Positions 2,852 through 10,929 of a stretch of DNA of 64,000 nt are shown one piece after another. The notes below the pieces were generated by a model that worked only from the letters and a program-made list of their open reading frames with translations, had not been told where the DNA came from and searched no databases. A program made the position numbers and the translations under genes. Within the stretch, counting starts at the first letter, position 1. Every line of letters begins with the position of its first letter. The stretch covers positions 2,728,001-2,792,000 of the forward strand of contig CP000699.1 of assembly GCA_000016765.1 (NCBI GenBank), given 5' to 3'. The stretch comes from Rhizorhabdus wittichii RW1 (GTDB lineage: Bacteria; Pseudomonadota; Alphaproteobacteria; Sphingomonadales; Sphingomonadaceae).

Positions 2852-2927
2852 GGGGCCGTAGCTCAGCTGGGAGAGCGTCGCAATGGCATTGCGAAGGTCA
2901 GGGGTTCGATCCCCCTCGGCTCCACCA
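2852..2927 (+). tRNA. tRNA-Ala (anticodon GGC)
   Basis: A 76-nt cloverleaf can be drawn: acceptor 2852-2858/2917-2923, D stem GCTC/GAGC, anticodon stem TCGCA/TGCGA with loop ATGGCAT (anticodon GGC at 2885-2887), T stem AGGGG/CCCCT with loop TTCGATC. The acceptor carries the G3:U70 wobble pair that identifies alanine tRNAs, and CCA is encoded. Its 3' end is the left half of a direct repeat that bounds a genomic island. Confidence 0.95.
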
Positions 2928-2935
2928 TTTTCCAC
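2914..2935 (+). repeat. Left attachment repeat (attL) at the tRNA-Ala 3' end
   Basis: A 22-bp sequence covering the last 14 bases of the tRNA (through CCA) plus ATTTTCCAC-type downstream bases is repeated exactly at 10840-10861. A tyrosine recombinase gene starts 82 bp further on, the standard arrangement of a tRNA-integrated island. Confidence 0.85.
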
Positions 2936-3017
2936 AGAAAGCCCGGATTTCCTGAAAAGCTAGGAAATACAGGCCCTGCTCTAGCCGAATGTCACGCACA
3001 GGTGTTACACACGGGGC

Positions 3018-4808
3018 GTGGACGACGTGGGCAAACCGGCGGGGCTGACAAAGCGCAAGGGCAGCAGCCAATACTACTTCCGGATGCGCTGTCCGAAGCA
3101 TTTGGCTGGCCCGGGCGTTCGCAACGAAGTTTTGATCAGCCTTAAGACTGCCGATCGGCGGCAAGCCCTCATGCGGTTGCCGGATGCGCGGGAGAAGGCG
3201 CATCGCCTTTTTGTCAATCCGCCGACCAAATTGGAGATCGTCGCCGCTCAGCCATATCGCCGGTGGCCCGATGATCCTCTTTGGCCTCTCCTTGACACTG
3301 CCGACGTCCTCGGAATGGTCCAACGGTATTTTCAGCTTGGCCTCATCGAATTGGATGCCGAAGAGCACCTGACAGGCGCCTTGGCCCCGGAAGCGTTGCA
3401 ACGGGTTGCACAAGATTTGGATGAGCAAATTGCCGCGCTGAGGGCCGCACCGGATACGGAGGAAGAAGAGGACCCGGTCGTAGGGGTGGCCATCGGCCTT
3501 CTTCACGAAGCGGGCGTGAGAACGCCCTATGCCAGTCAACCGGCGAGGCTGTTGCGAGAATATTTGCGCAGAGCGATGGAACAGCTTTTGACTATCGAAC
3601 GGGCCCGATTGCATGGCGATTTTTCGGTAACGTCCACCGATCCGCTGTTTTCGATCCAGCCGATTTCCGCGTCAGTTCATCTCCCTCAGATGCGGCACGG
3701 GCCATCATCGCCAAGGCTGGTACGGATTGCGATCAAAGAGGCCGCCGACCGCTACCTCAAGGAAGTGTTCCAAGCCGATCGCAAAAACAAGACCGAGGAA
3801 CGCTATCGCGCCGAGATCAAGCATATCGTCAGCTACTTCGGCGAGCAGACCGTTTTGGCGGATTTGAAGCGGGCTGACAGTATCGAGTTCAGAGATATCT
3901 TCGCCAAACTGCCTCCGAATTTCTCGAAGCGGCTCGATGATAAGGTCTCCATCCGTGATCTGGCGGCCAGGAGAAAGCCGGATGATCCGGTGCTGGCTTG
4001 GGAAACGCTGGATAAGTACCTCTCAGCGCTCAATCGCTTTATGCGCTGGGCCTACAAGGAAGAGTATACCGAGCGCGCGTGGGACGATCTCAAACCGCTA
4101 AGCAGCAAGCCGGACGGCTCGATGGCAAAGTTTCCTTTCGAGAACGACGAGCTGCGCCGCATCTTCAATCGGCCGATCTACACCGGTTGCAAGGACGACA
4201 GGAACGGCTTTGCCAAACCCGGACCGAACATCGTTCGCCGGAGCCGCTACTGGGCACCATTGATCGCCCTGTTCATGGGGCTGCGAGCGGGCGAAATCCT
4301 ACAACTCACCCCAGCGCACTTCCGCACTTCGGACGCGGGAACCCCTTTCATCGTATTGACGCTCGACATGCGGCTCAAAAACGAAAATGCCCAGCGCGAG
4401 ATACCCGTACATCCAATGCTGGTTCGCATAGGGCTGCTGGATTGGGTGGCACGGCGCAGAGAGCAACCTGATGACAAGCTCTTCCCGGAAGTTGGACTGG
4501 ACGTATTTCAGGCCGAAAGCCCCACATTCTCGAAACGCTTCCGGAGCGACTTGAAGTATTTCGAGCTGGGGGAGCGTCGGGACAAGCTCTCCTTCCACAG
4601 CTTCCGTCACACCTTCAAGCGCGCCCTCGATCGCGCGGCGGTCCCAGAGCAGGAAAAAGACGAACTATGCGGCTGGGCGAGAGGGAAGAAGATCGGGCGC
4701 CGTTATGGCAGTGGGCTGGAGGCCGATGTGCTCAAACCCCACCTTGAGAAGGTGGTCTATGATCTCGATCTCACCCACCTCCTAAGCCATTCGCGATTGT
4801 GTGACTGA
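3018..4808 (+). CDS. Tyrosine-type site-specific integrase of the tRNA-Ala island
   Basis: A 596-residue recombinase likely to integrate and excise the island at tRNA-Ala. The N-terminus (LTKRKGSSQYYFRMRCP) resembles the DUF6538 domain of large phage-type integrases. The C-terminal catalytic domain begins near residue 370; it shows GLRAGEILQL (first catalytic Arg), FHSFRHTFKR (HxxR box) and a likely nucleophile Tyr in GRRYGSG. Start is GTG at 3018, supported by a decayed copy of the same region at 10930, where the equivalent codon is ATG. Codon use is less GC-biased than in the chromosomal neighbours, consistent with transfer. Confidence 0.9.
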   Translation: MDDVGKPAGLTKRKGSSQYYFRMRCPKHLAGPGVRNEVLISLKTADRRQALMRLPDAREKAHRLFVNPPTKLEIVAAQPYRRWPDDPLWPLLDTADVLGMVQRYFQLGLIELDAEEHLTGALAPEALQRVAQDLDEQIAALRAAPDTEEEEDPVVGVAIGLLHEAGVRTPYASQPARLLREYLRRAMEQLLTIERARLHGDFSVTSTDPLFSIQPISASVHLPQMRHGPSSPRLVRIAIKEAADRYLKEVFQADRKNKTEERYRAEIKHIVSYFGEQTVLADLKRADSIEFRDIFAKLPPNFSKRLDDKVSIRDLAARRKPDDPVLAWETLDKYLSALNRFMRWAYKEEYTERAWDDLKPLSSKPDGSMAKFPFENDELRRIFNRPIYTGCKDDRNGFAKPGPNIVRRSRYWAPLIALFMGLRAGEILQLTPAHFRTSDAGTPFIVLTLDMRLKNENAQREIPVHPMLVRIGLLDWVARRREQPDDKLFPEVGLDVFQAESPTFSKRFRSDLKYFELGERRDKLSFHSFRHTFKRALDRAAVPEQEKDELCGWARGKKIGRRYGSGLEADVLKPHLEKVVYDLDLTHLLSHSRLCD

Positions 4809-4810
4809 CG

Positions 4811-5278
4811 TTAGACAGGAAGTTCGAAGTAGCGCCGGATGGACTGGTAGGTGATCGGCGATACTGCGTATTTCCCTTCCGGATCAGCAAGGCCGTTCCA
4901 CGTGTTCGAGCCAAGGAAATAGCCTCGCTTTTCGCCCGTCAATGCTCGTGTGCGCCGGGTCGTGGCCGTCTGGAACCTCCGAATATCGACACCTTGCTCC
5001 CTCAGTAGCCGTGCATCGATCACTGGCCCGCATTCGGCAATGATCCTCACCCCGAGCCGCACATTGTCAGGCAACCCATCCATCCAACGACCGATGTGCT
5101 TGAAGGTTATGTCCTCGACATCCGTCATGTGGATTGTTGCGAACCGGCTGTCCCGTGCCACAGGTGTCGGAGCGGCGTTTGGGGGGCAATCAAACGCTTC
5201 GCCAAGATACCGGATGATCTCATTTCGGGTTGGCTGGCTCAGATTGGCCAAATCGTCTGCGGTCAATGTGATGTGCAC
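4811..5278 (-). CDS. Unknown island protein downstream of the restriction gene
   Basis: I do not recognise this 155-residue product. It starts VHITLTADDLANLSQPTRNEI, which could form a short helical DNA-binding segment, and ends in an aromatic-rich tail (YQSIRRYFELPV). No membrane segment or signal peptide is visible. I chose the GTG at 5278 because AAGGGGAG sits six bases upstream; the frame stays open to a TTG at 5326. It lies on the same strand 152 bp after the EcoRV-like nuclease gene and ends three bases from the integrase stop (convergent), so it may be an accessory or regulatory partner of the restriction system. That link is inference. Confidence 0.6.
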   Translation of the reverse strand: MHITLTADDLANLSQPTRNEIIRYLGEAFDCPPNAAPTPVARDSRFATIHMTDVEDITFKHIGRWMDGLPDNVRLGVRIIAECGPVIDARLLREQGVDIRRFQTATTRRTRALTGEKRGYFLGSNTWNGLADPEGKYAVSPITYQSIRRYFELPV

Positions 5279-5430
5279 CCGATGCTCCCCTTGCTTCTGT
5301 CTGCGGCTCACCACATGCAGCAGCAACCTGATCGAGAAAAGACCGCATCGCTCGGCCGCCCCACCTCAGCAGCAGAGCGCTAACCACCAATTACGACACA
5401 TGGCCACGTTCTCGATAATCCGGGAAGCCG

Positions 5431-6189
5431 TCACGCAACGGCAGCCAACAGTTTTTGCAATTGCTGCTGAACGGCCTTCCCGATTTTCCACGGATGCTTT
5501 CGCCAGTATGAGTAGAACTCTTCGGGCGATTTGAACTCGCCTTGGCTATCCCGCAACCGTTGGATATCGTCCACAGCACCCAGATATTCTCGGGTCGTTG
5601 AGCTGCGGCTCTTCGATGCGATTGCCCATGGCTCGACTACCAACAGCTCAAAATCCGTTACTCGGGCCGCCGATCCCTCGTTCAACGTGTAAAGGCATAT
5701 AAGGTCGATATGGCCCGCATAATCTGCAAAGGGACGAAATGTCCCTGCCCATTTAAGCGTTGGGTACATGAAGAATGTGTTGCCGGTGTAAAGGGTGATC
5801 CGGCTATCTGTCTTTCCTGTAGGAAAGCCCCTCTTGTTAACTTTCCGCCGAGCCACCTTAACGTCGATTGCGAAGAAACGGCCGTTGGCGTTCATCTCAA
5901 GATCGGGGTAACCTCGTTCCGTCCCACGTACCAGTTCGACCTCTGATTGGCCGAGTTGTTCCATCACGTAATCGACTACGGCAACCTCGATGATGTTGGC
6001 AAGCGCCGCCGGTTCTTTCGGTAGTGGCAGAAAGTGATCGCCCGCAGCGAGTTGGGCAGACAGATCATCTTCGCTGGCAGCAATCAGGGGCCATTTATGA
6101 TTGCCGCCAGCCTTGTAGATCGCCAAGGGCTGGAAGGCGTAACCCGCACACACTTCCCGCAGGCGCTCGATGGCCGTCGTGATGTCCAT
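5431..6189 (-). CDS. EcoRV-like type II restriction endonuclease
   Basis: Probably cleaves unmodified double-stranded DNA at a specific site. The 252 residues match the layout of EcoRV (245 residues): YPDLEM with catalytic Asp at 96, then IDVK with Asp109 and Lys111, the PD...DxK signature of the PD-(D/E)xK fold, a serine/threonine-rich SKSRSSTTREYLG stretch where EcoRV has its SGNTTNIGS loop, and a C-terminal FKSPEEFYSYWR closely matching FDSEDEFLDYWR of EcoRV. It is divergent from a C5-cytosine methyltransferase 64 bp away, forming a restriction-modification pair. EcoRV itself is protected by an adenine methyltransferase, so the recognition site here is probably different and must contain cytosine. 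Confidence 0.85.
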   Translation of the reverse strand: MDITTAIERLREVCAGYAFQPLAIYKAGGNHKWPLIAASEDDLSAQLAAGDHFLPLPKEPAALANIIEVAVVDYVMEQLGQSEVELVRGTERGYPDLEMNANGRFFAIDVKVARRKVNKRGFPTGKTDSRITLYTGNTFFMYPTLKWAGTFRPFADYAGHIDLICLYTLNEGSAARVTDFELLVVEPWAIASKSRSSTTREYLGAVDDIQRLRDSQGEFKSPEEFYSYWRKHPWKIGKAVQQQLQKLLAAVA

Positions 6190-6232
6190 ATTTCCCCCAG
6201 CGTTGGCCTTTAGCGAAGTTGCCGATTGGTAG

Positions 6233-6245
6233 CCTAGCGGCTAGG
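6233..6245. promoter_or_regulatory. Palindrome in the R-M intergenic region
   Basis: CCTAGC, one base, GCTAGG: a 13-bp dyad centred eight to nine bases before the likely methyltransferase start and inside the 64-bp divergent promoter region. It could be an operator, or a methylation-sensitive site; several C5 methyltransferases repress their own promoters. No separate controller-protein gene is seen. Confidence 0.4.
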
Positions 6246-6253
6246 GTTTGCAA

Positions 6254-7486
6254 ATGAGCCGCCGACGTCAATTGAAAGCCATAAGTCTGTTCACTGGCAT
6301 TGGTGGACTGGATTTCGGATTTGAGGCGGCCGGCTTTGACACGGCTGTCGCTTTGGAGATCGACAAGGCGAGCTGTCGCGTTTTGGGCGACAACCGAGAT
6401 TGGCCCATCATTGGGGAAGACATCCACGACGTCGGCACGCCACGTCTTTTACAGGCGGCCAATCTCGAGGTTGGCGAGGCCGACATTCTTATCGGTGGCC
6501 CACCCTGCCAACCCTTTTCAAAGTCAGGTTATTGGGCATCCGGAGATGCAAAGCGACTTTCCGATCGCCGTGCTGATACACTCGGGGCATACCTCCGCGT
6601 CCTCGAAGAAGCCAAACCCAAGTCGTTCCTGCTCGAGAACGTCTATGGGCTTGCATATCGAGGCAAGGATGAGGGTCTTAATCGCATCCTCAGCGGCATT
6701 GAAGAAATCAACCGTCGCGCTGGAACCTCCTACAAACCCTCATGGCAGGTTCTTAACGCCGCATCCTTTGGCGTTCCCCAATTGCGTGAGCGCGTATTCA
6801 TTGTTGCAAGCCGAGAAGGGAAGAATTTCAAATTCCCTCAGCCAACGCACGGCCCGAAGGACACCGTGCTAGATGGTCAAGAGCCATTCCGGACATGCTG
6901 GGATGCGCTCGGTGATTTGCCAGAGCTGCCGAATGAACCCGATTTGATGCCGACGGGGAAGTGGGGCGATCTCCTGCCCACCATTCCCGAAGGCGAGAAC
7001 TACTTGTGGCACACGCGGCGTGGCGGCGGCCTCCCTCTCTTTGGATGGCGGACCCGGTACTGGAACTTTCTCCTCAAGCTTGCCAAGGACCGCCCTTCTT
7101 GGACCATTCAAGCTCAGCCTGGCTCCGCAACCGGACCTTTCCATTGGGCAAGTAGAAAGTTGTCGGTTCGTGAGCTGATGCGGCTTCAGACCTTTCCCGA
7201 GGGTTTGACCATTGATGCCACGCGAAGCGAGGCTCAGCGGATGCTCGGCAACGCAGTGCCTTCACTGCTTGCAGAGGTTCTTGCCCGTGCGATAGCAGTG
7301 CAGCTACTCGGGCGGCCACCAATAAAGGGGGAACCCAGCTTGCTTCCGCCAGTTCGCGGAAATATGCCGAAACCGGAACCCGTCAAGCGGGTTTCGAGGC
7401 CGTACCTCGCTCTCGTTGACGATCACGAGGATCATCCCGGCACGGGCTTAGGCCGCAGAGCGCGGCTGAGAGTTTCAGCGGCCTAA
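6254..7486 (+). CDS. DNA (cytosine-5-)-methyltransferase
   Basis: Transfers methyl from S-adenosylmethionine to cytosine C5, protecting host DNA against the adjacent nuclease. The 410-residue protein shows motif I LFTGIGGLDFGFE, motif IV GGPPCQPFSKSG with catalytic Cys85, motif VI LLENV, motif VIII QLRERVF and motif X MLGNAVPSLL; the variable target-recognition region lies between VIII and IX. I chose the ATG at 6254 over a TTG at 6248. The last 50 residues after motif X form a proline- and arginine-rich tail beyond the catalytic core. Confidence 0.95.
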   Translation: MSRRRQLKAISLFTGIGGLDFGFEAAGFDTAVALEIDKASCRVLGDNRDWPIIGEDIHDVGTPRLLQAANLEVGEADILIGGPPCQPFSKSGYWASGDAKRLSDRRADTLGAYLRVLEEAKPKSFLLENVYGLAYRGKDEGLNRILSGIEEINRRAGTSYKPSWQVLNAASFGVPQLRERVFIVASREGKNFKFPQPTHGPKDTVLDGQEPFRTCWDALGDLPELPNEPDLMPTGKWGDLLPTIPEGENYLWHTRRGGGLPLFGWRTRYWNFLLKLAKDRPSWTIQAQPGSATGPFHWASRKLSVRELMRLQTFPEGLTIDATRSEAQRMLGNAVPSLLAEVLARAIAVQLLGRPPIKGEPSLLPPVRGNMPKPEPVKRVSRPYLALVDDHEDHPGTGLGRRARLRVSAA

Positions 7487-7586
7487 CTCTCGAGTTACAG
7501 CTCTCGCTCCAAAGTGGACATGAACGTCCTTACGCTTCCGTAATATAGAAGGTATGTTCGTCGTTTGCCCATTGGGAGACGCGCGG

Positions 7587-7863
7587 ATGAGCAAAGCGAC
7601 TACGATGAGCTTCTCACTTCGCCTGATGCGAAGCGGAGTAACCCCTCTTAAAGCCCTTAAGGAAGACCACGATCTCGAGGAGGTGCCAAGCACATCCGGC
7701 TGGCTATTCGTTGGCCAAAGCGTGGCGCTCCCTCCCAGTTGGTCGGGCTATCTCTCCCACTACAGCGGCGAAGCCATCGCCAAACTACGCAGGCAAAGCT
7801 GTTCAGCGGTTCTCTTACTCGAAGCCGGTCTGGATGAGGAAAAACGTCTCTTTGCGCTTTGTT
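7587..7863 (+). pseudogene. DUF6119/TIGR04141-like gene, 5' fragment cut by IS21 element
   Basis: About 92 codons survive before the insertion sequence begins; a chance stop inside the element follows at 7895. The fragment (MSFSLRLMRSGVTPLKALKE, then GWLFVGQSVALPPSWSGYLS and SCSAVLLLEA) resembles the N-terminus of DUF6119 proteins, called TIGR04141 sporadically distributed proteins, which are typically over 500 residues and found on mobile DNA. The start at 7587 follows GGGAGAC. It lies directly behind the methyltransferase in the same direction and may once have been part of the same defence module; that is inference. Confidence 0.6.
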
Positions 7864-7975
7864 TGTGGATCGGCGTGCAAAAAGGACCCCGTTAGCGGGG
7901 TGATCGGCGTCTAAAAGGGACCCCTCATTTCGATGGTTTAAGCAGCCGGCTGGATTTTCAGGCGGCGAGATCGGG

Positions 7976-9490
7976 ATGTTGATTTTGGAGACAGTGGTTC
8001 GGATTCGGCGCGAGTATGCCGGCGGCAAGGCGATCAAGGCGATCGCGCGGGATTTGCATGTGTCGCGGAAGGTGATCCGCAAGGCGATCCGGGCGCCGGA
8101 AGGCGCATTCGACTATCAGCGCAAGGTTCAGCCACTGCCTAGGATCGGGCCGTTTCAGGATCGCCTGAACACACTGCTGGAAGAGAACGAGGTGCGCGGC
8201 AGGCGCGAGCGACTGCGGATGACGCGGATACATGATCTGCTGGAGCGCGAAGGTTTTGAGGGTTCCTACGATGCCGTTCGGCGCTACGCGGCGCGCTGGA
8301 AGGCCGACCGGCGCAAGGATGCCGGCGATGGTGTCACCGCCTTCATCCCGCTGATGTTCAAGCCGGGCGAGGCCTACCAGTTCGACTGGAGCCATGAGGA
8401 TGTGGAGATCGCCGGCAAGCCGATGCGCGTGAAGGTTGCGCATATGCGGCTGTGTGCATCGCGGGCGGTCTATGTCCGGGCCTATCCGCGCGAGAGTCAG
8501 GAGATGCTGTTCGACGCGCATGCGCGCGGCTTTGCTTTCTTCGGCGGCGTGCCGGGCCGCGGCATCTACGATAATATGAAGACGGCGGTGACGAGCGTGT
8601 TCACGGGGAAGGAGCGGGTCTTCAACCGGCGGTTCCTGATCATGACCGACCATTATATGGTCGAGCCCACCGCCTGCTCGCCGGCGGCGGGATGGGAGAA
8701 GGGCCAGGTCGAGAACCAGGTGCAGACGATCCGGGGCCGCTTCTTCCAACCCCGGTTGCGGTTCGCCAGCCTCGACGAGCTCAATGGCTGGCTGGAGGCC
8801 GAGTGCCAGCGCTGGGCGGAACGACAGGCACACCCGGAACAGGGCGAGCTGACCGTGGCGCAGGCGCTGGAGATCGAGCGATCGGCACTGCAGCCGATGC
8901 TGGGACCGTTCGACGGCTTTAACGAGAGCGAGCATGCGGTGACGGGCACCTGCCTGATCAGCTTCGATCGCAACCGCTACTCGGTTCTCTCGACGGTGGC
9001 GCGGCGGACGGTGCAGGTCCGGGCCTATGCCGACCGCATTGTCGTGCGCTGCGGCGAGGAGGTTGTCGCCGAGCATCCCCGCTACTTCGGGCGCAACCGC
9101 ACGATCTATGACCCCTGGCATTATCTGCCGGTACTGGCCCGCAAGCCCGGAGCGCTGCGGAACGGCGCGCCCTTCCAGGACTGGGATCTGCCGCCGGCGC
9201 TGGCGCGCCTGCGCCGCAAGCTTGGCAATGGCGACGATGCCGACCGCCGGTTCGTCCGTGTGCTGTCGGCCGTGCTGACCGATGGTCTGGAGCCGGTCGA
9301 AGCGGCCGTCCGCGAGGCATTGGCGACCGGCACGGCGAGCGACGACCTGATCCTCAACATCCTGGCGCGGCGCCGCGAACCGCCGCGACCGCTCACCATC
9401 ATCACCTCCGAAGACAGCGCCTTGCGCCATCCGCCGATCGCCGACTGCGCCCGTTACGACCAGCTGAGGACCTTCGATGCAGCGGCATGA
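7976..9490 (+). CDS. istA: IS21-family transposase IstA
   Basis: A 504-residue DDE transposase. The N-terminus carries an HTH ([18 protein letters not shown]). The catalytic triad can be read at [15 protein letters not shown] and the EKGQVENQV segment. The 3' end overlaps istB by 14 bases, the usual translational coupling in this family. The gene appears intact with a full-length C-terminal beta-barrel domain. It is more GC-rich than the island genes it interrupts, so it probably arrived later. Confidence 0.93.
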
Positions 9491-10205
9491 CATGATCGAG
9501 GCGATGCGCGGGCTTGGGCTCAAGGGCATGGCGGGCGCGTTCGACGATGCGGTCACCACCGGCCTTCAGCGCCAGCGCACCACGATGGAGATACTGACCG
9601 ACCTTCTGCGCGCGGAAGCAACACATCGCCATGCTGCCTCGATCCGATACCGGATGGCGGCCGCCCGGCTGCCGGTCGTGAAGGATATCGATGCGTTCCG
9701 GTTCGAGGGCACGCCGATCAACGAGGGGCTGGTGCGTTCGCTGCACAGTGGCGCGTTCCTGCCCGCTCGGCGCAACATCGTCCTGGTCGGCGGCACGGGC
9801 ACCGGCAAAACCCACCTGGCCATCGCCATCGCCGCCAATGTCGTTCGCTCGGGTGCGCGAGGCCGCTACTTCAACACCGTCGATCTGGTGACCCGCCTCG
9901 AAGAGGAGGCCAGGATCGGCAAGAGCGGCGCTCTCGCCGCCCAGCTATCCCGACTCGACCTGATCGTGCTCGACGAACTGGGATATCTGCCGTTCGCCCG
10001 CTCGGGCGGCCAGTTGCTGTTCCACCTGATCAGCAAGCTCTACGAGCAGACCAGCGTCATCATCACCACCAACCTCGCGTTCGGCGAATGGCCCACCGTG
10101 TTCGGCGATCCCAAGATGACCACCGCGCTCCTTGATCGCGTCACCCACCATTGCGACATCGTCGAGACCGGCAATGACAGCTGGCGCTTCAAAAACCGCA
10201 GCTGA
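9477..10205 (+). CDS. istB: IS21-family helper ATPase IstB
   Basis: AAA+ ATPase of 242 residues that assists IstA in target capture. Walker A is [15 protein letters not shown] near residue 105 and Walker B is [12 protein letters not shown]; the DnaC-like ending ([19 protein letters not shown]) is typical. The ATG lies inside the end of istA. It looks intact. Confidence 0.94.
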
Positions 10206-10382
10206 TCGCCCCCACCGACCTCCGATTAAAAGATGCTTTGCGCTGCGCGCGCCTCCGGTCGGGCTCCGCCCTCCCTACGCCGCGCGCAGCGCAAAGGCGC
10301 GTGTCCGATCAACCTTGCGCCATCGTGAAAGGGGGTCCCTTTTGCGCGCCGATAGGGGGTCCCGTTTGCACGCCGATTGACA

Positions 10383-10695
10383 TCTTTTGCTCGGCAACCG
10401 GGTCGAGGCCGGATCGAATGAGGCGACGATAGGCCTCGGCCTTCTCCCGCGCTTCGGCCAGCGTCAGCAGCTTGCGTTGAAGGATCGGAACGCCTCGTGC
10501 GGCATCCGTTACCTCTTTCGATCGCATCGACGTATCGACCGAACCCAGGCCAAAATCACGCCGCTTGCCGTCCGACTGCATCCGCAGCAACCAAGATCGC
10601 GCGTCGCTGCCCTTCACATGAAGATAAAGACCATCCCCATCGGCGTGGCGTCCCACTCCTGCCGATTTCACCTTCAGCGCCGTCAACTTGCCCAT
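10383..10695 (-). pseudogene. Truncated P4-type integrase (N-terminal DUF4102 arm-binding domain)
   Basis: About 104 codons beginning MGKLTALKVKSAGVGRHADG, then GLYLHVK, RSWLLRMQ, LTLAEAREKAEAYRRLIRSG and LDPVAEQK, the arm-type DNA-binding domain of P4-like integrases in sphingomonads. The whole catalytic domain is missing because the IS21 element begins at codon 105; the rest is not found on the other side of the element. It belongs to a different integrase subfamily from the gene at 3018 and reads away from the right attachment repeat. Confidence 0.8.
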
Positions 10696-10700
10696 CGAAA

Positions 10701-10762
10701 TCCCCACATCAGTCCCCACACTTTATTCAGATTGCGTGGGGACAGCAATGAACAGATGGGGA
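10701..10762. promoter_or_regulatory. Cluster of TCCCCAC/GTGGGGA boxes upstream of the integrase stub
   Basis: TCCCCAC at 10701 and 10713, GTGGGGA at 10736 and ATGGGGA at 10756. Short repeats in both orientations between an integrase start and an att site are typical of arm-type integrase or excisionase binding sites, but this is inference. Confidence 0.35.
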
Positions 10763-10839
10763 CGATATTTCGAATTACACCCTATAAAATAAGGGTTATA
10801 TGGACAATCTGGAACCGAGAGGAATGATTGTTATGGAGA

Positions 10840-10861
10840 CCTCGGCTCCACCATTTTCCAC
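10840..10861 (+). repeat. Right attachment repeat (attR) of the tRNA-Ala island
   Basis: Exact 22-bp copy of 2914-2935, containing the tRNA-Ala 3' end. Together the two copies delimit about 7.9 kb of less GC-rich DNA with an integrase at one end. Sequence beyond both repeats stays recognisably similar for over 100 bp. Confidence 0.85.
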
Positions 10862-10929
10862 GAAATCGCGAATTTCCTGAAAATCTGAGGCATGCTGGCT
10901 CTGTTCTGGCCGGATGTTACGCACAGAAC

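Follow-up and report, generated by a model that had tools for sequence, protein, structure and literature searches.

Genes and features of the locus

The window analysed here is a 64,000-nucleotide stretch of Rhizorhabdus wittichii RW1 (contig CP000699.1, positions 2,728,001 to 2,792,000), and all coordinates count from its first base unless stated otherwise. Near its left end lie two divergent genes, encoding an EcoRV-family nuclease and a C5-cytosine DNA methyltransferase, together with the following features:

2914..10861, no strand: presumed integrated island carrying the pair, bounded by exact 22-base repeats at 2914-2935 and 10840-10861
3018..4808, plus strand: tyrosine recombinase of the phage integrase family (PF00589, E 1.4e-8; PF20172, E 5.1e-8), presumed island integrase
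4811-5326, minus strand: 171-aa frame adjoining the nuclease gene, unmatched in Pfam, NCBIfam and PADLOC at E <= 1
5431..6189, minus strand: EcoRV-family (PF09233) restriction endonuclease, 252 aa, from Pfam and alignment with EcoRV
6190..6253, no strand: divergent intergenic stretch, 64 bases between the two presumed starts (ATG at 6254 assumed)
6248..7486, plus strand: C5-cytosine DNA methyltransferase, 412 aa (PF00145, E 1.3e-54)
7554-7895: beginning of a gene of the DUF6119 family (TIGR04141-like), matching only model positions 1-90 of 524 and running into the end of the IS21 element
7976-10205: IS21 element carrying both of its transposition genes (PF22483 and IstB); its inverted repeats lie close to 7864-7936 and 10320-10382
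10309-10719, minus strand: recombinase fragment with an N-terminal Arm-DNA-bind_3 domain

The recombinase, the 171-aa gene, the pair, the DUF6119 start, the IS21 element and the recombinase fragment all lie between the two repeats, the left of which overlaps the 3' end of a tRNA-Ala gene (2852-2927), and GC content is 0.60 within the island against 0.70 on either side. By these features, the pair looks like cargo of a small tRNA-integrated element, within which the DUF6119 gene, whose frame runs into the IS21 element, looks cut off. A 65-base stretch just beyond the right repeat (10862-10926) is 77% like the sequence following the tRNA (2937-3001), as if a further integration had taken place at the right end. 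We also observed a second C5 methyltransferase gene about 32 kb past the right end of the window (G000:C1:2823558-2824520; L002 and L003, two matching pieces of one 408-aa frame).

The nuclease and the methyltransferase

The preliminary description of this DNA had paired an EcoRV-like nuclease with a divergently transcribed C5 methyltransferase and had proposed a PF09233 profile search and a structure prediction compared with EcoRV; both analyses were run, and both gene identities held. The nuclease matched PF09233 (Endonuc-EcoRV) with an E-value of 4.2e-9 and 36.6 bits, above the Pfam gathering cut-off of 25, and this was the sole Pfam family matched at E <= 1; NCBIfam and PADLOC gave no match at the same threshold. 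Comparison with PDB sequences by phmmer returned EcoRV in eight of nine rows, all weak (best E 0.021). Nuclease residues E68, D96, D109 and K111 align with EcoRV E45, D74, D90 and K92 and presumably form the active site, and the stretch FKSPEEFYSYWR aligns with EcoRV FDSEDEFLDYWR.

The predicted structure has the EcoRV fold expected of a family member; when aligned on structure, the nuclease and EcoRV share about 19% identity. Confidence in this fold depended on EcoRV relatives being present in the input alignment: a control prediction from the nuclease and its L004 counterpart (below) alone was poor (pLDDT 47.4), its best structure matches still being EcoRV at a TM-score of about 0.3. NlaIV, whose site is GGNNCC, was also among the structure matches of the predicted nuclease, and on this precedent an EcoRV-like fold acting on a GC-rich site is not new.

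The partner matched PF00145 (C5 DNA methylase) at 186 bits and contains the PCQP, ENV and GNAVP motifs; NCBIfam places it in the dcm superfamily, and PADLOC matched it to DruM and Type II methyltransferase models, which represent cytosine methylases of several systems. Its listed start is a TTG at 6248, but the ATG at 6254 appears likelier, yielding an N-terminus (MSRRRQ) similar to that of the L004 copy (MSTSRP). We found no convincing sigma-70 site in the intergenic stretch; a simple scan of positions 5380-7560 gave one promoter-like site, where 0.9 were expected, and this lay outside the gap.

The pair as a unit

The same divergent pair occurs on a contig of a Phenylobacterium MAG (L004), with a nuclease 70% and a methyltransferase 64% identical to those of the window, flanked by genes other than the window's, which by eye include a resolvase, an ATPase and a helicase resembling UvrD. 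Nuclease and methyltransferase genes are thus kept together, as in Type II systems, in both known copies (n=2). Between the two copies, pN was 0.21 for the nuclease and 0.27 for the methyltransferase, and pS was 0.82 and 0.72, respectively; since pN is far below pS, both genes look maintained.

The pair is rare, with two occurrences in the material searched. Searches for further nuclease copies found none in plasmids or phages (tblastn, E <= 1e-3), a two-row alignment used as query against viral contigs also found none, 60 genomes of relatives contained only the window's own gene, and 385 genomes of the class yielded that gene and one distant EcoRV-family member (L092) with a D12 partner. Two apparent copies were dropped as chance matches: a 25-residue match to a viral contig with the protein query (L098) and a short match inside a different 333-aa frame of a genome (L005), at neither of which any frame passed the EcoRV-family profile at 1e-5.

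Partners across the EcoRV family

To place the pairing in context, we recorded the neighbours of EcoRV-family genes at 44 loci (the window counted once), drawn from five of 398 genomes matching (the window's genome included), L092, L004, 30 loci on viral contigs and seven of 12 matching plasmid records (four E. coli records and one from Leuconostoc were left out). A D12-type methyltransferase was found at 25 loci, a C5 enzyme at two (the window and L004), and neither type at 17, the last a weak count given that some fetched stretches end near the nuclease gene. Counted as distinct proteins, 21 of 31 had a D12 partner, eight had neither and two had C5. Pfam confirmed D12 for all six partners scanned (L006-L009, L092 and L137), and partners in the seven plasmid records are annotated as Dam family or DNA adenine methylase; the remaining D12 calls, from viral contigs, rest on profiles built in this analysis. 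Similarly, PMC6697440 describes a thaumarchaeal MAG in which PF09233 adjoins Dam. Among the matches listed in a survey of open-licence literature (REBASE being outside its scope), no title or abstract opening reported an EcoRV-family nuclease with a C5 partner. The viral loci L117-L132 encode EcoRV-family proteins, mostly of 197 aa and with a GSGNT R-loop, for which no D12 or C5 methyltransferase was found in the fetched stretch.

Replacement of the DNA-reading loops

In EcoRV, as described in PMC4081073, the R-loops account for 12 of the 18 hydrogen bonds that are possible with bases in the major groove, the Q-loop contributes two in the minor groove, and Lys38 intrudes on the minor-groove side of the central base pairs. 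With loop roles taken from this source, we compared the window and L004 nucleases with the 29 other distinct EcoRV-family proteins. The R-loop motif GSGNT is present in 28 of the 29 (the exception, L106, has GLGNT), D[T/S]K at positions 36-38 also in 28, and Q[N/T] at 69-70 again in 28, L106 being deviant and poorly aligned at that place. The window and L004 nucleases instead carry RSSTTREYLG in the R-loop, EPA at 36-38 and ER at 69-70. These two nucleases form a clade (support 100/100) whose branch length is 7 changes per column, and for which the tree program warned that their amino-acid make-up is unlike that of the rest of the tree.

As read from the alignment, the R-, Q- and B-loops of EcoRV are replaced in the window nuclease and the catalytic residues are retained, a pattern expected of a nuclease that would still cut but read another sequence. 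Because all three loops are replaced, we propose that the window nuclease does read a different sequence.

Relatives of the methyltransferase

Relatives of the methyltransferase were found in viral contigs (L012-L020, 50-63% identity to the window enzyme) and at L094 (60%), L095 (50%), L203 (63%) and L204 (48%), and another (L099, 65%) was found via its nuclease. A RE_SacI nuclease lies beside the methyltransferase in L013, L014, L016, L018 and L099; these neighbours scored 104-123 bits against Pfam. In L094 the neighbour is a MTaX1-domain protein (PF20296), homologues of which were detected by tblastn in L019 and L203; it is possibly a third nuclease type for this methyltransferase lineage. 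L020 has Vsr beside the methyltransferase and no recognised nuclease, and no partner was recognised beside the enzymes of L012 (where the contig end cuts the locus), L015, L017, L095 and L204. A haloarchaeal plasmid (L142) also carries a C5 enzyme beside RE_SacI, with a recognition region more distant from the window's. A small, controller-like HTH gene lies between RE_SacI and methyltransferase in L099 (2321-2593, HTH_26) and, by eye, in L013 (3662-3904). Weak RE_SacI matches were seen at L100, L101 and L102; Pfam assigns the methyltransferase beside the L100 match to D12, and the gene next to L101 looks similar by eye.

From its position ahead of the last conserved motifs, residues 236-300 presumably form the target-recognition region. 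Over these residues the window enzyme is 82-88% identical to five enzymes that lie beside RE_SacI nucleases (M.SacI itself not being among them), compared with 50-62% over residues 8-235. Over the same region, identity to the MTaX1-paired enzymes, of which two were compared, is 77-80%, and identity to L095, beside which no partner was recognised, is 83%. Four columns within 236-300 separate the five SacI-paired from three MTaX1-paired enzymes, and here the window is SacI-like in two, MTaX1-like in one and neither in one; in six separating columns outside this region it is SacI-like in one, MTaX1-like in four and neither in one. A methyltransferase tree gave no resolved placement of the window enzyme.

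Recognition site and alternative explanations

The preliminary description had taken the C5 pairing to imply a different, cytosine-containing site. A change of site does appear likely, but the pairing alone does not force it, because a C5 enzyme could mark the cytosine already present in GATATC. The case for a new site comes instead from the replacement of EcoRV's base-reading loops and from a recognition region resembling those of methyltransferases beside SacI-family nucleases. M.SacI is described in PMC4725820 as a cytosine-5 enzyme for GAGCTC, and we read the positions given there as placing the mark on the inner cytosine. Since residues 236-300 are so alike in the window and SacI-paired enzymes, and since M.SacI marks GAGCTC, our best guess at the site is GAGCTC, marked on its inner cytosine, or a sequence close to it, a guess that we hold at slightly under even confidence. 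Several points count against it: GA..TC is common to GATATC and GAGCTC, yet the loop with which EcoRV reads GA..TC appears replaced; the MTaX1-paired enzymes and L095 are nearly as alike over 236-300; and the separating columns are mixed, with the tree placement not resolved. Site avoidance did not discriminate: in 400 kb of the host, the observed-to-expected ratio of GAGCTC was 0.51, which ranks 17th among the 53 palindromes expected at least 5 times (others being scarcer) and lies within the range of 0.33 to 0.96 in five same-genus genomes (400 kb of G409 and 100 kb each of four others).

A working pair could also read some other cytosine-containing site, neither GATATC nor GAGCTC, that is recognized by this methyltransferase group, which we regard as a serious possibility, if a minority one. 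The loops are wholly replaced, the one reading GA..TC included, the conserved recognition region is common to methyltransferases with unrelated partners, and the modest Pfam scores of the RE_SacI neighbours suggest that their own sites may differ from SacI's; the close identity to the five SacI-paired enzymes over residues 236-300 argues in the opposite direction. Far less probable is that GATATC remains the site, with the C5 enzyme marking the outer cytosine instead of the usual adenine and the nuclease being an EcoRV isoschizomer: family, fold and active site agree with EcoRV, and the cytosine is available, but the R-loop, the Q-loop and residues 36-38 are replaced where 28 of 29 other members keep GSGNT, and the methyltransferase is related to enzymes whose neighbours are RE_SacI nucleases. 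It is equally improbable that the two genes are chance neighbours, an independent C5 methyltransferase beside a decaying or unrelated EcoRV-like nuclease. The long nuclease branch, the cut DUF6119 gene and IS21 element in the island, and the rarity of the pair would fit this reading; the recurrence of the divergent pair in L004 amid other neighbours, the intact frames and active-site residues, and the low pN of both genes do not.

Proposed system and its significance

We consider it likely that the two genes make up a Type II restriction-modification system whose site has changed, a confidence that does not extend to GAGCTC. In such a system, the C5 methyltransferase would mark a cytosine in a short site of host DNA, and the EcoRV-family nuclease, a descendant of the EcoRV lineage reading another sequence, would cut the same site where unmarked in invading DNA by means of its EcoRV-type active site. 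The nuclease is probably a dimer, as is EcoRV, and probably leaves blunt ends, since most enzymes of the EcoRV-like class cut mid-site (PMC548270). If the site is GAGCTC, the EcoRV-like nuclease would occupy the place held by a SacI-type nuclease in related systems, and its predicted blunt cut would be GAG^CTC, as made by R.Ecl136II and R.Eco53kI. Rather more speculatively, an EcoRV-lineage nuclease may have been naturally re-specified to the GAGCTC of a SacI-type methyltransferase through replacement of its R-, Q- and B-loops, taking the place of an unrelated SacI-type nuclease, in which case one methyltransferase lineage would have recruited three unrelated partners (RE_SacI, the EcoRV-family nuclease and the MTaX1 protein).

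A textbook enzyme, EcoRV has proved resistant to engineering of its sequence specificity, and the 29 other distinct family members collected are nearly invariant in the DNA-reading loop. A natural relative with EcoRV active-site residues, other loops and a C5 partner would make it possible to test directly how such a scaffold comes to read a new site. The methyltransferase lineage, with its three unrelated kinds of neighbour, would also exemplify partner exchange around a conserved methyltransferase.

Comparison with known systems

The closest known systems include those of EcoRV and SacI. The EcoRV system (GATATC) joins a PF09233 nuclease to a D12 adenine methyltransferase; the window differs in having a PF00145 C5 enzyme instead of D12 and, at about 19% structural-alignment identity, in its replaced R-, Q- and B-loop residues, with RSSTT in place of the GSGNT that reads GATATC. 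SacI-type systems join RE_SacI (PF09566) to a C5 enzyme of the same group as the window's, with the high identity over residues 236-300 noted above, and the window's divergent gene order is seen in L013, L014, L016 and L099. The window nuclease, in contrast, belongs to PF09233, no PF09566 match was found in the window's genome, and the window pair has no intervening HTH gene, unlike L099 and (by eye) L013. NlaIV, HincII and SwaI are grouped among the closest known systems to the window nuclease. The proposed system is a variant on known Type II restriction-modification, and its unusual point is that a C5 partner occurs inside the EcoRV sequence family, PF09233.
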